Under the pieces are notes generated by a model that made no database searches, was not told the DNA's origin, and worked only from the letters and a program-made list of their open reading frames with translations. 64,000 bases of DNA, taken from NCBI RefSeq assembly GCF_014199305.1, contig NZ_JACIJK010000005.1, positions 268,517 through 332,516 on the forward strand, read 5' to 3'. This DNA comes from Sphingomonas aerophila (GTDB lineage: Bacteria > Pseudomonadota > Alphaproteobacteria > Sphingomonadales > Sphingomonadaceae). Both the position numbers and the translations under genes were made by a program. Of this stretch, positions 46,209-54,945 are shown piece by piece (within the stretch, counting starts at the first letter, position 1; every line of letters starts with the position of its first letter).

Positions 46209-46907
46209 ATGACGCAATTCAGGTTCGCGCCGGGCGCACGACTAAGCGCAAGGCTGATCGGCGCCGACCATGAACCGCTGCTCCACGCGGAAGCGGCCTT
46301 TGCCAATCCCGACGAGCTGGTCGAGCTCGCGGCAACGGCCATTTTCAGCCCGGCTTTCGGCCCTGCCGGCGGGTACCCCGGCCTGCGGGCAGCGCTGCCC
46401 AACGAGTATATCCAAGCCGTGGTCAACGTCCTGACCCGGCCGCTGGCCGAGGCGTTCGCGCTTGGGCCGATCCGGCCGATCAGCGCGCAGGGCGCATTTT
46501 CCATCGTGACGCTGCCTGAAAACGCGCTGGCGGCCCCTCAGCGCGCGCCCCATGTCGATTCGGTCAACCCGATGCAGTTCGCTATTCTGCATTACCTTTG
46601 CGACAGCTCTTTTGGCGGAACAGCCTTTTACCGGCATCGCGCAACAGGCTTTGAGAAATTGAACGAGAGCCGGCTGCCTGGATACAACGCCATCCGTTCT
46701 GCCGAAGGTGCCCCGACCGGCTATGTCGGCGATGGCAGCCCATGGTTTGAACAGATCGGCCAGGTATCCGCCGCCATGAACCGCCTCGTCGCATACCGCA
46801 GTTGCGTGCTGCATTCCGGGCAGATTCCGTCGCCAGAACTGCTGACGGAGAACCCCCGCCATGGACGCCTGACCGCCAACGTCTTTGTGACATTCGCACC
46901 GGCCTGA
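46209..46907 (+). CDS. DUF6445 family protein of the halogenase cassette
   Basis: A 232-residue soluble protein with no signal peptide. FGPAGGYPGLRAALPNEYIQ, HVDSVNPMQFAILHYL and SFGGTAFYRHRATGFEK, plus a late SCVLHSGQI stretch, follow the DUF6445 pattern. The HVD and H (late) positions resemble a 2-oxoglutarate/Fe(II) dioxygenase-type double-stranded beta-helix, but that is inference. In sphingomonads and caulobacters DUF6445 genes recur next to TonB receptor/SapC/tryptophan-halogenase genes, as here. ATG at 46209 follows GTGAGGC. It is upstream of the receptor but separated by a promoter. Confidence 0.8.
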   Translation: MTQFRFAPGARLSARLIGADHEPLLHAEAAFANPDELVELAATAIFSPAFGPAGGYPGLRAALPNEYIQAVVNVLTRPLAEAFALGPIRPISAQGAFSIVTLPENALAAPQRAPHVDSVNPMQFAILHYLCDSSFGGTAFYRHRATGFEKLNESRLPGYNAIRSAEGAPTGYVGDGSPWFEQIGQVSAAMNRLVAYRSCVLHSGQIPSPELLTENPRHGRLTANVFVTFAPA

Positions 46908-46979
46908 GCCACTCGTAGAAACCACGATCAGGAAATCTGTGTCAGGTCCGGCGCCCACGTTCGCGCTAACATGACATCG

Positions 46980-47007
46980 TTGACACGGCGGGTTTTCGTG
47001 CTAGCTT
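46980..47007 (+). promoter_or_regulatory. Putative sigma-70 promoter of the TonB receptor gene
   Basis: TTGACA at 46980-46985 and TAGCTT at 47002-47007 with a 16-base spacer, in the 165-base gap before the receptor. Transcription would start near 47014, giving a leader of about 60 bases. AGGGGAGG at 47061-47068 then serves as ribosome site before ATG 47073. Confidence 0.6.
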
Positions 47008-47072
47008 CCACATAACGGGAAGGCTTACGGCTGTTCACGATAATCGGCGCCAACGCCGCAAGGGGAGGATGT

Positions 47073-50000
47073 ATGGGGGTTACCAAACTCGTGGGTACGC
47101 TTGTCCGCAGCACGTCTGCGGGCGCGATTGCGCTGTGTATTGCCAGCCCGGCCGCCGCTCAGGTGGTTGGCGGCGGCGATGACACGAACGCTCCTGCCAC
47201 CAATGCGCAGCCGGGCTCCGAGGATGCGCCCCGCGCAGCCCAGGATGGCGCCACCACCAGCCCAGCGACGGAAAGCGCTGAGGACGACGTCGTCGTTCGC
47301 GGTATCCGTGCATCGTTGAACCGCGCCATCGACATCAAGCGTAACTCCAACGGCATCGTTGACGCGATCTCGGCCGAGGACATCGGCAAGTTCCCCGACA
47401 CCAACCTTGCCGAATCGCTTCAGCGCGTGACCGGCGTGTCGATCAACCGCGTGAACGGAGAGGGCTCCGAAGTCACCGCTCGCGGCTTCGGCGGTGATTT
47501 CAACCTGGTCACCCTCAACGGCCGTCAGCTTCCGGCCACCAACCTGCAAGGCGTTGGCGGCGACCAGAGCGTCGATTTCACAACCGCGACCGGCCGCTCC
47601 TTCGACTTCGGCAACCTCGCCTCCGAAGGTGTCAGCACGCTGGAGGTCTACAAGACGGGTCGCGCGGCCATCCCGACGGGCGGCATCGGTGCCACCATCA
47701 ACGTCATCACCCGCAAGCCGCTCGATTCGCGCGAGGCCGGATTCTCGGGCTCGATCGGGGCCAAGGCGTCGTACGATACCAGCATCGAAAAGGACGAGGA
47801 TGGCCTTGCAAAGGTCACGCCCGAAGTGTCCGGCCTGCTGAACTGGAAGAATGAGGGCGACACATTCGGCGTCGCCGTGTTCGGCAGCTACCAGAAGCGT
47901 AACTCGGCGGCCGCAAGCTCCACGTCCAACGCCTGGAACATTCGCACGATCGATAATCCGGGCGATATCATCGGCGCCAACACGGTGGTCAACAACCGGC
48001 CGGCGGCAGGGAGCCTGATCGCATTCCCGAACGACGCGCGCTATCACTTCTCTGAGTCCACCCGCGAGCGCATCAACGCGTCGGGCGTCCTGCAATTCCG
48101 CCCCGTCGAGACGCTGCTGGTGACAGCCGACGTGTTGTGGGCGCAGAACAAGCAGAGCGAAGCGCGGCAGGATCAGACCAACTGGCTCAATCGCCCGTTC
48201 GGCACCGTCACCTTCGACGACAGCCCGGTTCCGACCGCCGCGGTGATCTCGCAGGCGGTGCCCGATCCCAAGGACACGGGATATGAGCAGCAGTTCCGCG
48301 CCACCAAGGACAAGCTTCAAGAATATGGCCTGAACGCCGCGTGGGACGTGACGGACACGTTCAAGCTCGTCGCGGACGTGCAGCATTCCAAGTCGCAGGC
48401 GCTGCCCAACGGATCGAACGGGGCGAGTTCCACCCTGTTCTCGATGGGTGCCAATGTGGTGAATGGCCAGAGCATCGACTGGTCACGCGGCTTCCCGCAG
48501 ATCAACGAAACGATCAACGATTGCTTCGATCGCAATGGTTCGGCTGCTGGCGGCCTTGTCGGCAACTGCAACAACCAGCTTGATGTCGGCGACCTCGGCA
48601 CTCAGGTGGCGCGTACCAACACGGCTCGGCAGATCCAGACCATCAACCAGGCACAGCTCGGGCTCGGTTGGGATCTGGGCGAAGGCAGCCGGGTCGACTT
48701 CGGCGGCAGCTACATCGACTCCAAGCTGCGCTCCACGCGGACGCAGACATCGCAGACCCTCGGCGACTGGAGCATCGGTAATCCGGGCGAAGTTGCTGCG
48801 CAGGCGGGTGACCTGATCAAGACGTTCTGCCTGGTCTGCAAGTTCGACCATTTCGAACCGGGCGTCACGGGCCCTGGCCTGAACGCGTTCCGCGGCAATG
48901 CCATCGCGCTTACCGACCTCTTCTCATCGCTGTATGCCGGTCGCGGCAACCCCGTCACCGCCGGATCGGCAAACGACGACAGCATCCGCGAGAAGATCGC
49001 AGCCGTTTACGGGCAGTTGACCTGGAAGGGCCAGATTGCCGGGGCGGACGCGACCCTGGTCGTCGGTGCACGGTACGAAGTGACGAAGGTTCGCGCCTTC
49101 TCGCTGGTCAACGGGCCAGCCGCCATCGTCTGGACGTCGGACAACGACTTCAACGTGCCGGGGTCGGCGTCGGCAACGCCGCTGTCGGGCCGAGGCAGCT
49201 ACGACAACCTGCTGCCGGCGATCGACTTCCAGATCTCGCCGTTTGAGAACGTGATCACCCGTGTGTCGTTCAGCCGGACGATCGCGCGGCCCACCTATGG
49301 CCAGCAGTTCGTCAGCTCGACTGCCGGCGCAGGAAGCCGGGCAACATTGTTCGGCGGCCAGCCGAACGGCTCGACCGGCAACCCGAACTTGAAGCCACTG
49401 GTATCGGACAATTTCGACGTGTCCGCCGAATGGTACTTCAAGCCGTCGAGCTATCTCTCGGCGGGGTTCTTTGACAAGCGCGTCCGCAACTTCGTCGGCA
49501 CCGGGCTTTCGACGGGTAACCTGTTCGGCCTGCGCGATGCGACGACTGGCGCCCCCGGATCGCGTTCGGGCACAGCGACGTCCGCGTTGACCCGCCTGGG
49601 CCTGGACCAGTCCGACATCAACCTGTTCAGCTACACGGCCAGGTTGATCCAGAACGGCGGCAACGTCACGCAGACCGATGCGGACATCCGCGCCAACAGC
49701 ACGGGAACCGCGGTCAACCAGGGCTATTTCGACAGCCTGTCGCGCGCCGTCGACATCACGCCTGACGCCAACGACCCGCTTGCGGTGTTCTCCATCGCGT
49801 CGCCGATCAACAATCGCGATGCGGAGATCTACGGCGCTGAATTCGCGGGCCAGTACTTCTTCGGCCAAACCGGCATCGGCGTCGCCGCGTCCTATACCTT
49901 GGTTCGTGGTAACGTCGGCATCGACGTGCTCGCCGCCCCAACCGCCGATCAGTTCGCGCTGCTCGGCCTGTCGGATAGTGCGAACGCGTCGCTGATCTAC

Positions 50001-50285
50001 GACAAGAACGGCATTTCGGCTCGCCTGACCTATAACTGGCGCGACAAGTTCCTGTCGGAAATAGGCCGCGGCGGCACGACTGACCGCAACCCGGTCTTCT
50101 TCGCGCCCTATAGCACGGTGGACCTGAACGTGAGCTGGGACATCAACCAGCGGATCGCGGTGTCGCTGGAAGGGATCAACCTCACCAGCGAGTCGGTCCG
50201 CAGCTATGGCCGCTCGAAGAATCAGACCTTCTTCGCTCAAGAGAACAAGCCACGCCTTCTGCTCGGCGCGCGCTACCGCTTCTAA
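47073..50285 (+). CDS. TonB-dependent receptor (TonB-Xanth-Caul type) of the halogenase cassette
   Basis: A 1,070-residue outer-membrane importer with a signal peptide ending IASPAAAQ and a Thr/Ala/Pro-rich spacer. The TonB box is likely DVVVRGIR, and the plug carries the group signature ASLNRAIDIKRNSNGIVDAI then DIGKFPDTNLAESLQRVTGV. The barrel ends in the aromatic LLLGARYRF. This receptor type is linked to carbohydrate or aromatic-like ligands in Xanthomonas and Caulobacter. The three genes behind it are transcribed the same way beyond a terminator. Its ligand is probably what the cassette enzymes act on; that is inference. Confidence 0.93.
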   Translation: MGVTKLVGTLVRSTSAGAIALCIASPAAAQVVGGGDDTNAPATNAQPGSEDAPRAAQDGATTSPATESAEDDVVVRGIRASLNRAIDIKRNSNGIVDAISAEDIGKFPDTNLAESLQRVTGVSINRVNGEGSEVTARGFGGDFNLVTLNGRQLPATNLQGVGGDQSVDFTTATGRSFDFGNLASEGVSTLEVYKTGRAAIPTGGIGATINVITRKPLDSREAGFSGSIGAKASYDTSIEKDEDGLAKVTPEVSGLLNWKNEGDTFGVAVFGSYQKRNSAAASSTSNAWNIRTIDNPGDIIGANTVVNNRPAAGSLIAFPNDARYHFSESTRERINASGVLQFRPVETLLVTADVLWAQNKQSEARQDQTNWLNRPFGTVTFDDSPVPTAAVISQAVPDPKDTGYEQQFRATKDKLQEYGLNAAWDVTDTFKLVADVQHSKSQALPNGSNGASSTLFSMGANVVNGQSIDWSRGFPQINETINDCFDRNGSAAGGLVGNCNNQLDVGDLGTQVARTNTARQIQTINQAQLGLGWDLGEGSRVDFGGSYIDSKLRSTRTQTSQTLGDWSIGNPGEVAAQAGDLIKTFCLVCKFDHFEPGVTGPGLNAFRGNAIALTDLFSSLYAGRGNPVTAGSANDDSIREKIAAVYGQLTWKGQIAGADATLVVGARYEVTKVRAFSLVNGPAAIVWTSDNDFNVPGSASATPLSGRGSYDNLLPAIDFQISPFENVITRVSFSRTIARPTYGQQFVSSTAGAGSRATLFGGQPNGSTGNPNLKPLVSDNFDVSAEWYFKPSSYLSAGFFDKRVRNFVGTGLSTGNLFGLRDATTGAPGSRSGTATSALTRLGLDQSDINLFSYTARLIQNGGNVTQTDADIRANSTGTAVNQGYFDSLSRAVDITPDANDPLAVFSIASPINNRDAEIYGAEFAGQYFFGQTGIGVAASYTLVRGNVGIDVLAAPTADQFALLGLSDSANASLIYDKNGISARLTYNWRDKFLSEIGRGGTTDRNPVFFAPYSTVDLNVSWDINQRIAVSLEGINLTSESVRSYGRSKNQTFFAQENKPRLLLGARYRF

Positions 50286-50311
50286 GCGTCAGGTTTGAAC
50301 TAGTCTCCCCT

Positions 50312-50339
50312 AAGGCCGCTCTCACGGGCGGCCTTTTTT
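50312..50339 (+). terminator. Rho-independent terminator after the TonB receptor
   Basis: A perfect 8-base stem AAGGCCGC/GCGGCCTT with an 8-base loop, running directly into a six-T tract (50334-50339). This is the clearest intrinsic terminator in the window. It sits 27 bases after the receptor stop and would insulate or attenuate expression of the sapC-cupin-halogenase genes behind it. Confidence 0.9.
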
Positions 50340-50399
50340 CTGCCAATTGCTAGCGCTCAGTTGCTAGTTGCTCATCAAAATCCCGTGCAGCATCAAGAG

Positions 50400-51155
50400 A
50401 TGCCGTTGGCCAGCCAGAGATGCCCCGAGTCGATGAACCGCGTTCTGCTCAACAATGTCGACCATGCCGACCTGCGCGTTGCGATCCGCGCCGGGGCCGA
50501 GTTCGGCGACAGCGTCAATCAATTGCCGATCTTCCCTGCCGAGTTCGAGGAAGTGCAGAGGTCTTTCCCGATCATCTTCCGGCAAGAGGGCGATGTGATT
50601 CAGGCCTATGCCCTGCTTGGCCTGGATCGTGACGAGAACCTGTTCCTCGACGGCGACCGGTGGAACAGCGCCTATGTGCCCGCATTCCAGCGGCGTGGGC
50701 CCTTCTCCATCGCGCTCGGCCAGGCGGAGCCCGGAGATGCAGAAACGAACGGGCCGATGATCCATGTCGACCTCGACGACCCGCGGGTCGGGGCAAGCGA
50801 TGGCCTGCCTGTCTTTCGGGAACATGGCGGCAACGCTCCCCTTCTCGACCATATGATCGGCGTGCTGGGCACGATCTATGACGGCCTGGAGGCCGCGCCG
50901 GCGATCTATGCCGCCTGGCAGGAAGCCGGGCTGTTCCAGCAGATCACGATCGAGGTGAGCCTGGACGATGAGCGCACCTACAAGATCCCCGATCTGCTCA
51001 CGATCAACCGGCAGGCGCTCTCCGACCTTTCGGGCGAGTTGCTCGAAAGGCTGCACCGCCGCGGCCTGCTGGAAGGGGCGGTGCTGGCCGCATCATCGCT
51101 CGGCAACGTACAGCGCTTGATCGAGCTGAAGAACAGGAAGCGATCGGCGGCGTGA
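50400..51155 (+). CDS. SapC family protein
   Basis: About 251 residues, cytoplasmic by sequence (no signal). SapC pattern: NNVDHADLRVAIRAGAEFGD near the N-terminus, VNQLPIFPAEFEEVQRSFPI, IVFR-like IIFRQEGDVIQAYALLGLDR, and NLFLDGDRWNSAYVPAFQRR. It was first named after an S-layer-associated Campylobacter gene, but its role in sphingomonads is unknown; it is a steady member of halogenase cassettes. The start is uncertain: ATG at 50361, 50400 or 50433 (MNRVLLNNVDH, nearest to the family). No strong ribosome site precedes any of them. It overlaps the cupin gene by 4 bases. Confidence 0.87.
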   Translation: MPLASQRCPESMNRVLLNNVDHADLRVAIRAGAEFGDSVNQLPIFPAEFEEVQRSFPIIFRQEGDVIQAYALLGLDRDENLFLDGDRWNSAYVPAFQRRGPFSIALGQAEPGDAETNGPMIHVDLDDPRVGASDGLPVFREHGGNAPLLDHMIGVLGTIYDGLEAAPAIYAAWQEAGLFQQITIEVSLDDERTYKIPDLLTINRQALSDLSGELLERLHRRGLLEGAVLAASSLGNVQRLIELKNRKRSAA

Positions 51156-52201
51156 ACGAGCCGACTGCCTCCCGGCCGATCACGCCCCGTCGCGTTCGCG
51201 AGATTGACGCCGCCGAGGCGGCTGCGCTCGACTTCAGCGCGATGATCGCAGCAGGAGAGCCGGTCGTGGTGCGCGGGCTGGCACGCGATTGGCCGCTGGT
51301 CGCCGCGGGTCGGGAAGGACCGCAGGCCGCCGCTGAGTATCTGTTGTCGTTCTATAATGGCCGGCCCGGCGTCGGCTACACGGCATCGCCGGATCATGGC
51401 GGTCGTTACTTCTACGACGAGAGCATGACCCGCCTGGATTTTGAGGCGGCGCGTGTGCAGCTGGACGAGTATATCGCCCTGATGCTGGCCAATCTCGGCA
51501 ATGCGAGATCCCCGTCCTTTTACGTCGGCTCGACCGATCTGGACGGCTATTTTCCGGGTCTGGCGGCGGCGGGAAACGACCTGCCGCTTGACGGGCCGGC
51601 ATTCGCGACAGCCTTGCGTAGCATCTGGATAGGCAACCGCACCATTGCGTCTGCCCATCACGACATGTCGAACAACATCGCCTGTGTTGCGGTAGGCCAG
51701 CGGCGTTTCACCCTGTTCCCGCCCGACCAGATCGGGAACCTGTATCCCGGCCCGCTGGAACCGACGCCGGGCGGGCAAGTGGTGTCGATCGTCGACTTCC
51801 GCGCGCCCGATCTCGACCGCTTCCCCAATTTCGCCAAGGCGGTGGAGGCGGCACAGGTTGCGGAACTCGGGCCCGGTGACGCGGTCATTTATCCGGCCCT
51901 ATGGTGGCATCATGTGGAAGCGCTGTCCGACTTCAACATGATGATCAATTTCTGGTGGAACGAGGCGCCCGGTTTCATGGACTCGCCCATGAACACGCTG
52001 TTGCACGGGCTGCTGAGCCTGCGCGATCGACCGGAGGGCGAGAAGAAGGCCTGGGCGGCGCTGTTCGACTATTATGTGTTCGGCCCCGCCGAGCGCCCGA
52101 TCGCCCACCTGCCACAGGGGGCAGCAGGCGCGCTGGCGCCGCTCGATGACCGATCCGCGCGCCAGTTGCGCGCTAAGCTCCTGCGACGGATCAACCGATG
52201 A
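51152..52201 (+). CDS. Cupin-like (JmjC-type) protein of the halogenase cassette
   Basis: A 349-residue cupin/JmjC-fold protein. The N-terminal GEPVVVRGLARDWPLVAAG matches the cupin_8 entry motif. The metal centre has an HxD in SAHHDMSNN near residues 169-171 and a late histidine in YPALWWHHVEALS, so the Fe(II)/2-oxoglutarate ligand triad looks intact. It is a candidate hydroxylase of an amino acid or the receptor ligand. GTG at 51152 overlaps sapC by 4 bases and the stop overlaps the halogenase ATG by 4 bases, so the three proteins are likely made in fixed ratio. Confidence 0.86.
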   Translation: MNEPTASRPITPRRVREIDAAEAAALDFSAMIAAGEPVVVRGLARDWPLVAAGREGPQAAAEYLLSFYNGRPGVGYTASPDHGGRYFYDESMTRLDFEAARVQLDEYIALMLANLGNARSPSFYVGSTDLDGYFPGLAAAGNDLPLDGPAFATALRSIWIGNRTIASAHHDMSNNIACVAVGQRRFTLFPPDQIGNLYPGPLEPTPGGQVVSIVDFRAPDLDRFPNFAKAVEAAQVAELGPGDAVIYPALWWHHVEALSDFNMMINFWWNEAPGFMDSPMNTLLHGLLSLRDRPEGEKKAWAALFDYYVFGPAERPIAHLPQGAAGALAPLDDRSARQLRAKLLRRINR

Positions 52202-53700
52202 CCACACCGGCGACCCCAACTCGTATCGTCATTGCTGGCGGGGGCACCGCCGGATGGCTGACCGCTGCGATCCTGACGCGACAATTGGGCGCGCTGGCCG
52301 ACGTAACGCTGGTCGAGTCCGAGGATATCGGCACCGTCGGTGTGGGCGAGTCCACCATCCCGACCGTCCGCGCGTTTCATGCGCTGCTCGGAATCGACGA
52401 GCAGGAGTTCATGCGTGCCACCGGCGCCAGCTTCAAGCTCGCCATCTCGTTCGAGAACTGGGCACGCGAGGGTGACCGCTACATCCACTCATTCGGCGAG
52501 GTCGGCAAATCGACCTGGATGAGCGATTTTCAGCATTTCTGGCTGGAAGCGCGCGAGAGGGGGTTGGCCAAGCCGTTAGGGGCCTACTGCCTGGAGCATG
52601 AGGCGGCGGCCGCCAAGCGGTTCGCGACGGGGCAGAGCACAGCGCTGAATTACGCGTACCATTTCGACGCTGGCCGTTACGCGCGTTACCTGCGTCACCG
52701 GTGTGAGGCGAATGGACTGACCCGCATCGAGGGCCGGATCGACCGGGTCGAGCAGGATGGCGAAAGCGGCGACATTGCTGCGCTGGTCATGGCGAACGGC
52801 ACCCGGGTCGAAGGTGACCTGTTCTTCGACTGCACCGGATTTTGCGCACTGTTGATGGGCGAAACGCTGGGCATCGGTTTCGAGGACTGGAGCCACTGGC
52901 TGCCGACCAATCGCGCGCTTGCGATGCAGACCAGGTCAACGGAGCCTGCCGTGCCCTATACGCGCGCGATCGCGCATGATGCGGGCTGGCGCTGGAAGAT
53001 CCCGTTGCAGCACCGGGTGGGCAATGGCCTGGTCTACTGCGCCGACTATCTCCACGATGATGCCGCCCGTGAGCGCCTGCTCCGCGACGTGGAAGGAGAG
53101 CATCTGATCGAGCCGCGGTTGATCAAATTCCGCACGGGACGGCGCCGGGCGGCATGGCACCGCAACTGCATCGCGCTGAGCCTTGCCAGCGGCTTCGTGG
53201 AACCGCTGGAGTCCACCAGCATCCACCTGATCATGATCGCGCTGACGCGCTTTCTGCAGCTTTTCCCCGCTGGGCGCCCAAGCCCGGCCACCGTTGCTCG
53301 CTTCAACGAACAGGCCGCGCTCGAGATCGAGGGCGTGCGCGACTTCATCATCCTTCATTATCATCTGAACGAGCGTGACGAGCCGTTCTGGCGCGACCGG
53401 CGCGAAATGAGCATCCCCGACACCCTCGCGGACCGGCTTGCCTTGTTCCGGGATAGCGCGAATACGTTCCAGGCGAACCACGACCTGTTCCGGATCGCGT
53501 CCTGGTTGCAGGTGATGCTCGGCCAGAGGCTGGAGCCGGCCACCCACCACCCGCTGATCAAGCTGATGCCACCGGATCAACTCAAGGCGGTGATGAAAAG
53601 CTTGAGCGACAGCATCGCCCGGTCGGTGCAGGACCTACCTTCGCACCAGAGCTTTCTCGACCGATATTGTCCGGAGATGCCGGCTCGGGTTGCCGCCTGA
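52198..53700 (+). CDS. Flavin-dependent tryptophan-halogenase-family protein
   Basis: A 500-residue flavoenzyme. FAD-binding RIVIAGGGTAGWLTAAILTR (GGGTAG at residues 14-19) and VGVGESTIPTVRAF. The catalytic lysine is in FKLAISFENWARE (Lys80, matching Lys79 of PrnA/RebH). The GWRWKIP halogenase motif is near residue 262, so it may halogenate rather than oxygenate. Homologues from TonB-linked cassettes (the BrvH/Xcc group) prefer free indole-like substrates over tryptophan. No partner flavin reductase is adjacent. It ends the cassette; the next gene is a MucR regulator. Confidence 0.9.
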   Translation: MTTPATPTRIVIAGGGTAGWLTAAILTRQLGALADVTLVESEDIGTVGVGESTIPTVRAFHALLGIDEQEFMRATGASFKLAISFENWAREGDRYIHSFGEVGKSTWMSDFQHFWLEARERGLAKPLGAYCLEHEAAAAKRFATGQSTALNYAYHFDAGRYARYLRHRCEANGLTRIEGRIDRVEQDGESGDIAALVMANGTRVEGDLFFDCTGFCALLMGETLGIGFEDWSHWLPTNRALAMQTRSTEPAVPYTRAIAHDAGWRWKIPLQHRVGNGLVYCADYLHDDAARERLLRDVEGEHLIEPRLIKFRTGRRRAAWHRNCIALSLASGFVEPLESTSIHLIMIALTRFLQLFPAGRPSPATVARFNEQAALEIEGVRDFIILHYHLNERDEPFWRDRREMSIPDTLADRLALFRDSANTFQANHDLFRIASWLQVMLGQRLEPATHHPLIKLMPPDQLKAVMKSLSDSIARSVQDLPSHQSFLDRYCPEMPARVAA

Positions 53701-53933
53701 TCGCGGCAGGTCCGGCCAAGTGGTGGTGAGGGGACGCAAGTTGTGCCGGGCCCGATGACAACCGTTTCGTCTGTCCCTCCGCAGTCCGGCACTGACTCCT
53801 AAATGCGGAAATTGTCGGGGCAGACGCAAAAAGCGAACCAAATCCGGTCAGAACCGGCGTTTGGCACGGCAAGTCTTTGTTGACGCGCGGATCGCCATGG
53901 CTGATCGACACTCCTCCATTCTGGAGGGAAATG

Positions 53934-54452
53934 ATGGCCGATACGCAGGACAGCACCAACGTCGAACTAGCTACCGAACTGACGATCGCTTGGCTGTCCA
54001 ATCCCAACACGCGGGCCAGTTCCGAAGAAGTGCCTTCATTTCTCCAGCGCATGCATGATGCGGTTTCGAGCCTGACCGCTCCGGCGCCCGAGCCGGAAGT
54101 TACAACCGATCCCGAGCACATGCCTGCAGTGTCGGTGCGCAAGTCTCTTGCGTCCAAGGACCACATCATCTCGATGATCGATGGCAAGCCGTACAAGACG
54201 TTGCGTCGTCACCTGAGCACGCACGGGCTCACCCCGGACGAATACCGGGCGCGTTACAATCTCAAACCAGACTATCCCATGGTGTCCGATACCTATTCGG
54301 AAACCCGTCGTGACATGGCCAAGAAGATCGGGCTCGGACGCAAGCCGCGGGTCGAGGCCGGGGAACCAGCGACGGGCGACCCAGCATCGCAAGCGCCCGA
54401 AGCTGCCGCTCCGACGCGGGGCCGGCGCAAGCTCGGCATTGCAACCGGGTAA
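53934..54452 (+). CDS. MucR/Ros-family transcriptional regulator
   Basis: A 172-residue DNA-binding protein. The N-terminal helix has VELATELTIAWLSNPNTRAS, and the Ros/MucR domain is DHIISMIDGKPYKTLRRHLS, then LTPDEYRARYNLKPDYPMVS. The zinc-finger cysteine is replaced by serine (Ser80) while Asp83, His93 and His97 remain, so zinc binding may be lost or altered, as in some MucR-like proteins. MucR controls exopolysaccharide, motility and surface genes in alphaproteobacteria. Of the two adjacent ATGs (53931, 53934) I choose 53934, five bases after GGAGGG. Confidence 0.88.
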   Translation: MADTQDSTNVELATELTIAWLSNPNTRASSEEVPSFLQRMHDAVSSLTAPAPEPEVTTDPEHMPAVSVRKSLASKDHIISMIDGKPYKTLRRHLSTHGLTPDEYRARYNLKPDYPMVSDTYSETRRDMAKKIGLGRKPRVEAGEPATGDPASQAPEAAAPTRGRRKLGIATG

Positions 54453-54648
54453 GCCAGGCCGGCGGCTTCGCCGGGACAGTTTGTGATCAGGGAGGCATTG
54501 CCCGCGCTTGCGTGGCGATTGCCTCCCTCGCCCGGTGCGGAATTCCTGGCGGGCATGGCTTGCCGTATCTGATTGCCGGCGGACATTTAGCTCTCGACTG
54601 CCGTTATGCCCGGGCACACCCCGCCATCTGGCACGAAGGGAGATCGGA

Positions 54649-54945
54649 ATGCCCGTCAAAGTGGTCGCGTTCGTGACGGTGAAGCCCGACGCAGATGATG
54701 CCTTCCTAGCGGCGGCAATGACCTGTGCCGCGGCCTCTCGCGAGGAGGCAGGCACCCTGCGCTATGATTTGTGGCGAGAGCCGGAGGGCGAGCGGCGCGT
54801 CGTCTTCAACGAATTGTACGTCGATGATGCGGCGGTGAAGCAGCATATGGCGTCTGACCATTTCAAGGCGTTCGGCAAGGCTGCCGGCGACCTGTGGGCC
54901 GCCCCGCCCACCATCATCGTCACCCATCCGATCGACGTCGCCTAA
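54649..54945 (+). CDS. ABM-domain monooxygenase (YgiN-like)
   Basis: A 98-residue protein with a single antibiotic-biosynthesis-monooxygenase (ABM) domain. MPVKVVAFVTVKPDADDAFL at the N-terminus, then REEAGTLRYDLWREPEGERR and VFNELYVDDAAVKQHMASDH. ABM proteins are small dimeric, often cofactor-free monooxygenases of quinols and polyketides; some are general stress proteins. The cellular substrate here is unknown. ATG at 54649 follows AAGGGAGATCGGA. It stands alone after MucR and is not obviously in the halogenase unit. Confidence 0.85.
   Translation: MPVKVVAFVTVKPDADDAFLAAAMTCAAASREEAGTLRYDLWREPEGERRVVFNELYVDDAAVKQHMASDHFKAFGKAAGDLWAAPPTIIVTHPIDVA

Follow-up and report, generated by a model that had tools for sequence, protein, structure and literature searches.

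In a window of 64,000 nucleotides of the Sphingomonas aerophila genome (RefSeq assembly GCF_014199305.1, contig NZ_JACIJK010000005.1, positions 268,517 to 332,516; "the window" below is this whole stretch) we have analysed a cassette of five genes that encode a DUF6445 protein, a TonB-dependent receptor, a SapC family protein, a Cupin_8 protein and a flavin-dependent halogenase. The linkage between such halogenases and TonB-dependent receptors of the TIGR01782 family is far beyond chance in the genomes surveyed, and the DUF6445 protein is predicted, largely from its modelled fold, to be the second 2-oxoglutarate (2OG)/Fe(II) oxygenase of the cassette, the first being the cupin. We tentatively favour, as a possibility that falls somewhat short of even, the reading that the cassette enzymes act on a protein or peptide linked to the receptor, and most probably on the receptor chain before its export, rather than on imported sugars.

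The linkage was assessed in 40 genomes of the order, a set that includes the window's own genome and was not drawn through DUF6445. There, a TIGR01782 receptor is found at most 5 kb away from 84 of the 104 halogenases and at most 10 kb away from 90 of them. The receptor was detected in 25 genomes and the halogenase in 21 (both in 20, halogenase only in 1, receptor only in 5, neither in 14; Fisher p 7.5e-6, without correction for kinship), receptor counts being lower bounds, with at most 17 candidates scored per genome. For eight further genomes, which were picked for holding a DUF6445 locus, the corresponding numbers are 74 of 90 halogenases within 5 kb and 77 of 90 within 10 kb. The window's genome has 14 full-length halogenases, 11 of them with a receptor within 10 kb against an expectation of 9%, a count in which tandem copies are not independent and from which a fifteenth match of 40 residues is excluded. 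Of the 12 DUF6445 genes in the 40 genomes, 11 have a receptor or a halogenase no further than 10 kb away, and the remaining gene (locus L154, near thiC; L numbers denote loci throughout) has neither within that distance. Five of the loci in which the other 14 halogenases lie far from a TIGR01782 receptor were inspected. The halogenases of L143 and L152 adjoin another type of TonB receptor, PF25183 (as does, besides these five loci, that of L042), and a TonB receptor outside TIGR01782 lies about 3 kb from the halogenase of L142, so the halogenase/DUF6445 link extends to more than one receptor family; no receptor was seen near the halogenase among the few open reading frames (ORFs) scanned in L151 and L153.

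A pattern scan of GTDB species genomes, which was not exhaustive, returned 64 DUF6445 loci (65 with the window) distributed over Sphingomonas, Caulobacterales, Alteromonas, Shewanella, Rheinheimera, Gilvimarinus and Marinimicrobium. A preliminary description of the window, made from its letters alone, had placed relatives of the cassette in sphingomonads, caulobacters and xanthomonads, and all three were recovered, the last as two metagenome-assembled genomes of Lysobacterales/Xanthomonadales among the gammaproteobacteria. The neighbourhood comparison that it had proposed reveals that the families do co-occur: within about 10 kb a halogenase is present in 54 of the 65 loci, a TIGR01782 receptor in 51, the cupin in 41 and SapC in 24, and all 24 loci with SapC contain all five families. 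The exact gene order of the window is repeated in seven loci (L002-L007 and L037). Five more loci encode a TonB receptor of the PF25183 type (one member checked), which brings the receptor to 56 of 65; some of the loci that lack one are cut by contig ends (L001, L018, L039) and others are not. The genome that contains L054, that of Gilvimarinus agarilyticus, has two TIGR01782 receptor matches in a single open frame of 1959 residues (G045:C1:1686162-1691942), explained either by the fusion of two tandem receptors or by a boundary that was missed.

The sugar genes that surround these cassettes vary from locus to locus. When 19 of the 20 recurrent neighbour groups were scanned, one member each, the families that emerged were those of glycoside hydrolases (GH) GH10, GH67, GH43, GH3, GH1 and GH16, glucoamylase, LacI regulators and sugar transporters of the major facilitator superfamily; the sugar enzymes near individual loci comprise GH10, GH67, GH43, GH3, GH13-type amylase, GH16, GH1, GH92 and GH2. 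The implied sugars are of xylan, starch, beta-glucan and mannose types, and because the nearby sugar enzymes differ in this way it is the receptor that is the constant partner. Other cassettes of the window's genome stand by GH43 and GH3 (L147), by an alpha-amylase (L149) and by GH92 and trehalase (L142), and two close relatives of the window's cassette have sugar genes (GH1, GH92 and LacI in L002, GH2 in L007); none was seen among the four flank ORFs scanned in L003, nor was a glycoside hydrolase, sugar transporter or sugar regulator among the six flank ORFs scanned in the window. A sugar locus alone does not call for the enzymes, since some halogenase-free receptors of the same genome also have GH31 or GH43 neighbours (L155, L156, L161).

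The roles of DUF6445 and SapC had been left unassigned in the preliminary description; DUF6445 here receives its first predicted function. The DUF6445 model is confident and has the double-stranded beta-helix fold, and its best fold match is OGFOD1, which we take to be a protein hydroxylase (Z 15.2, ahead by almost 2 Z units), with further matches to Tpa1 (13.3) and to P4H and PHD2 (both 12.7). The predicted metal and cosubstrate ligands are conserved: of the 68 copies compared, all 68 keep H115, D117 and H202, and 67 keep R220. By sequence, DUF6445 has no meaningful match in the PDB, and no paper that names it was found in a literature search that covered few subscription journals. One of its two closest relatives, at 67% identity, is in a record titled Microvirga sp. 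SRT01 (L001), the other near relatives being from Sphingomonas; the Microvirga record may be misnamed, or the gene may have been transferred.

The cupin is likewise predicted from its sequence to act as an oxygenase. It matches FIH (E 1.2e-20) and JMJD5, and the HxD motif and late histidine that had been read from the window are indeed present as H169-x-D171 and H253; these residues and R184, which in the FIH alignment occupies the place of what is presumably Lys214 of FIH, are present in every one of the 40 copies longer than 150 residues. SapC (model predicted local distance difference test score 87.7) gave no fold or sequence match of worth, and 19 of the 39 SapC genes in the 40 genomes are within 10 kb of a TIGR01782 receptor or a halogenase. 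One lone copy in the window's genome (L150, G000:C9:93513-94175) adjoins an FAD-linked oxidase and an N-formylglutamate amidohydrolase, and this yielded no lead.

The halogenase scores 605 bits against PF04820 (cut-off 21) and bears out the motifs reported earlier, namely the flavin adenine dinucleotide (FAD) motif GGGTAG (GxGxxG), Lys80 and GWRWKIP; it also keeps EPLEST and Glu338, and we take Lys80 and Glu338 to be the catalytic residues. The closest solved sequences are Xcc4156 (PDB 6y1w, 567 bits), 9luq (552 bits) and BrvH (PDB 6frl, 446 bits), and the tryptophan 5-, 6- and 7-halogenases score 293 bits or less. Xcc4156 and BrvH turn over indole and its derivatives in vitro and do not halogenate free tryptophan, and the open site of Xcc4156 might take peptides (PMC7336383); some tryptophan halogenases are reported to halogenate peptides in vitro (PMC9775415), and a second halogenase gene lies upstream of brvH (PMC5945002). 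Multiple copies are also common in the loci studied here, where 54 loci hold 143 halogenase ORFs of more than 350 residues and 39 of them have at least two. Lys80 and Glu338 are both kept in 115 of the 143, both absent in 24 and the lysine only is absent in 4; a copy without either residue occurs in 23 of the 39 multi-copy loci, and 53 of the 54 loci have at least one copy with both. This distribution suggests partnerships of catalytic and non-catalytic halogenases. Loci of the xylan type (such as L015, L016, L019, L021 and L024-L029) have arrays of three to four halogenases; counted from the receptor, it is usually copy number two that is divergent, and this copy often lacks both catalytic residues.

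Several considerations make a protein or peptide linked to the receptor our preferred substrate: the receptor is constant while the sugar varies, the best fold match of DUF6445 and the best sequence matches of the cupin are to protein hydroxylases, and the halogenase group might be able to take peptides. The substrate would then be a protein, halogenated and hydroxylated in the cytoplasm with FADH2 supplied by an unlinked reductase, and SapC would present or bind it. In its most specific form, which we regard as rather doubtful, the proposal is that bacteria halogenate and hydroxylate the polypeptide of TonB-dependent sugar receptors by means of modular halogenases, pseudo-halogenases and two oxygenases of the protein-hydroxylase type (DUF6445 and the FIH-like cupin) that are encoded beside each receptor.

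The idea was tested directly on receptor sequences, of which two sets were compared. The first consisted of 115 of the 118 receptors scored, two partial matches and one below the cut-off being left out; 55 of these had a halogenase at a distance of up to 10 kb and 60 had none, and 109 of the 115 were retained in the profile alignment. In this set tryptophan was the amino acid most raised in linked receptors (12.4 vs 8.4 per receptor; p 0.0022 after tree correction but not yet corrected for 20 amino acids, methionine reaching p 0.0009), and the top single residue was Trp989, found in 35 of 52 linked and 5 of 57 unlinked receptors, for which the first tree gave 5.0 for and 0.0 against among 9 independent pairs (median p 0.0625). 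The second set came from eight other genomes with 135 receptors, 3 of them partial and left out. From the full-length ones, 39 of 55 linked and 40 of 77 unlinked receptors were drawn randomly with a limit per genome, which gave 79 receptors, 76 of them placed on the tree. The enrichment of the first set failed to replicate in the second, and tryptophan as a receptor mark was dropped as support. Methionine content is raised in the linked receptors of both sets (tree-corrected p 0.0009 in the first, then 0.0002 and 0.026, not corrected for 20 amino acids), an enrichment that was not predicted.

The evidence that weighs against the enzymes acting on the receptor chain is gathered here. In the second set, tryptophan content was 13.5 vs 11.9 (p 0.43, tree-corrected 0.24), with two of seven genomes showing the opposite trend, and for both sets pooled p was 0.08. 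Trp989 is absent from 17 linked receptors of the first set, reached p 0.09 in the second, gave 3.6 for and 2.0 against among independent pairs of both sets, and ranked sixth of 2895 traits once its own columns were excluded from the tree, with larger scores at the opposite end. A halogenase lies within 5 kb of only 54 of the 118 receptors scored, and the enzymes are therefore not needed for these receptors in general; 20 of the 39 SapC genes in the 40 genomes stand alone; and no modified receptor has been seen. As for DUF6445, Foldseek puts the small-molecule oxygenases HygX and SnoN first, and in the fold comparison PasI (13.2), SnoN (12.8), PolD (12.5) and HygX (12.4) tie with Tpa1 and P4H. 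Because the tryptophan test was not replicated and small-molecule oxygenases fit DUF6445 nearly as well, confidence in a receptor-linked substrate can be modest at best.

Other substrates have to be weighed. The preliminary description had taken an imported ligand to be what is hydroxylated or halogenated, which is possible but finds little support, and it is weakened by the varied sugar genes beside the same enzymes, to which no single ligand fits. A version in which a small aromatic ligand, free or attached to a sugar, is imported by the receptor and then hydroxylated and halogenated by the enzymes, so that the cell can use it or signal with it, strikes us as fairly unlikely, even though the action of Xcc4156 and BrvH on indole and its derivatives in vitro would suit it (PMC7336383). 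The first places of HygX and SnoN in the Foldseek ranking speak for such a ligand as well, as do the gene for a monooxygenase of the antibiotic-biosynthesis (ABM) type that follows the window's cassette and the enzymes of the MR_MLE type that recur in five loci. The MR_MLE family includes both aromatic and sugar-acid enzymes, and aromatic esters are possible on xylans; against this, halogen usually hinders assimilation, the nearby sugar genes change between loci and, besides MR_MLE, no clearly aromatic catabolic family was seen in the 19 of 20 neighbour groups scanned.

The enzymes might instead, upon sugar sensing, convert a cell metabolite into a halogenated and hydroxylated signal or inhibitor that diffuses and is recaptured by the receptor. 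We judge this unlikely: the presence of at least two halogenases in 39 of 54 halogenase loci could reflect a multi-step pathway, LacI and ROK regulators lie near several loci, there is an ABC transporter next to the window's cassette and L003 has an outer-membrane efflux protein in its vicinity, but the 19 recurrent neighbour groups scanned included no carrier protein, synthetase or methyltransferase, and some loci consist of a receptor and one halogenase only (L149). Two oxygenases with protein-hydroxylase kin would also fit a small ribosomal peptide, encoded elsewhere or missed, that is modified by the cassette in the manner of ribosomally synthesized and post-translationally modified peptides and handled by the receptor, and the Xcc4156 group has been compared with the peptide halogenase MibH. 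Xcc4156 is, however, only 26% identical to MibH and clusters apart from it (PMC7336383), and the gaps in the cassette are short (165 and 147 bases), a weak argument in that only ORFs of at least 90 residues were compared between loci; a peptide of this kind is in our view improbable.

The features of the cassette are listed in Table 1. ORF and profile searches bore out the five same-strand genes in the order first described, as well as the 4-base overlaps that join the last three (SapC with cupin, cupin with halogenase). The receptor passes the curated TIGR01782 cut-off and has both the PF07715 plug and the PF00593 barrel.

Table 1. Coordinates of cassette genes and likely signals in the window
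Feature	Position	Strand	Remarks
DUF6445 protein (PF20043), predicted 2OG/Fe(II) oxygenase	46209..46907	+	Predicted iron/2OG ligands H115, D117, H202, R220
Likely receptor promoter	46980..47007	+	TTGACA 46980-46985, GCTAGCTT 47000-47007
TonB-dependent receptor, TIGR01782 (TonB-Xanth-Caul)	47073..50285	+	NCBIfam 619.7 bits, cut-off 310
Intrinsic terminator between receptor and enzyme genes	50312..50335	+	10-pair stem and T run
SapC family protein (PF07277)	50433..51155	+	Pfam E 3e-60; ATG start
Cupin_8 / FIH-like predicted 2OG oxygenase	51152..52201	+	Pfam E 4e-67; GTG start
Flavin-dependent halogenase (PF04820), nearest Xcc4156/BrvH	52198..53700	+	Pfam E 1e-181

Of the sigma-70-like promoter proposed upstream of the receptor, the evidence supports the -35 element only, because TTGACA is invariant (6/6, the only invariant run of six in the upstream alignment of the window and five relatives) and GCTAG, 14 bases past it in the window, differs among the relatives; a strict sigma-70 scan listed no promoter where 1.6 were expected. 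The strong terminator described after the receptor falls in the 147-base gap. A single terminator-like site proves little, since the whole 9-kb region contains 9 as compared to 6.7 in shuffles. A hairpin is nevertheless found directly 3' of the receptor in 9 of 9 loci checked (window included; no chance control), and its stems show compensating changes (GGCCGC/GCGGCC, GGCCAC/GTGGCC and GGTCGC/GCGACC); it is therefore likely that a conserved terminator separates the receptor from the enzyme genes, and such a terminator would hold enzyme levels below receptor levels. The flanks of the cassette contain an ABC transporter and a Ros/MucR regulator, the gene for the latter (53877-54452) and that for the ABM-type monooxygenase (54508-54945) following 3' on the same strand. 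No flavin reductase was found among the part of the flank ORFs that was scanned, in agreement with the earlier remark that none is adjacent.

The single parts of the cassette are known families; descriptions of the five genes as one system, or of DUF6445 as an oxygenase, did not turn up among the papers listed by the literature searches. Nor was a halogenase of this type linked with SapC or with a TonB sugar locus, a search for which few subscription journals were covered, so that an earlier mention, for example in work on Xanthomonas, is possible. The indole-type halogenases BrvH and Xcc4156 have been purified and their structures solved without a known natural substrate (PMC7336383). That most halogenases of this family in the genomes examined are neighbours of TonB receptors, in many cases together with two predicted oxygenases, reduces the candidates for such substrates to a few testable targets. 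If the receptor does prove to be the target, a type of protein modification new to the bacterial surface would have been found.

It remains to compare the cassette with known systems. The window's halogenase shares the lysine and the GWxWxIP motif with Xcc4156 and BrvH; by word counts, TonB and SapC are absent from the main texts of the papers on these enzymes, and no oxygenase partners are mentioned in the parts of them considered here (PMC7336383, PMC5945002). The cupin has the iron triad in common with FIH and JMJD5, but it is a bacterial protein encoded in a receptor cassette and has an arginine at the 2OG-binding place where FIH has a lysine. DUF6445 is only about 10% identical to OGFOD1, Tpa1 and the prolyl hydroxylases, and small-molecule oxygenases score almost as high. 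Lastly, relatives of the cassette have the TIGR01782 receptor, LacI or ROK regulators, glycoside hydrolases and sugar transporters in common with the carbohydrate utilisation loci that contain TonB receptors, and to this plan the window's cassette adds families that do not cleave sugars, namely those of the halogenase, the two oxygenases and SapC.

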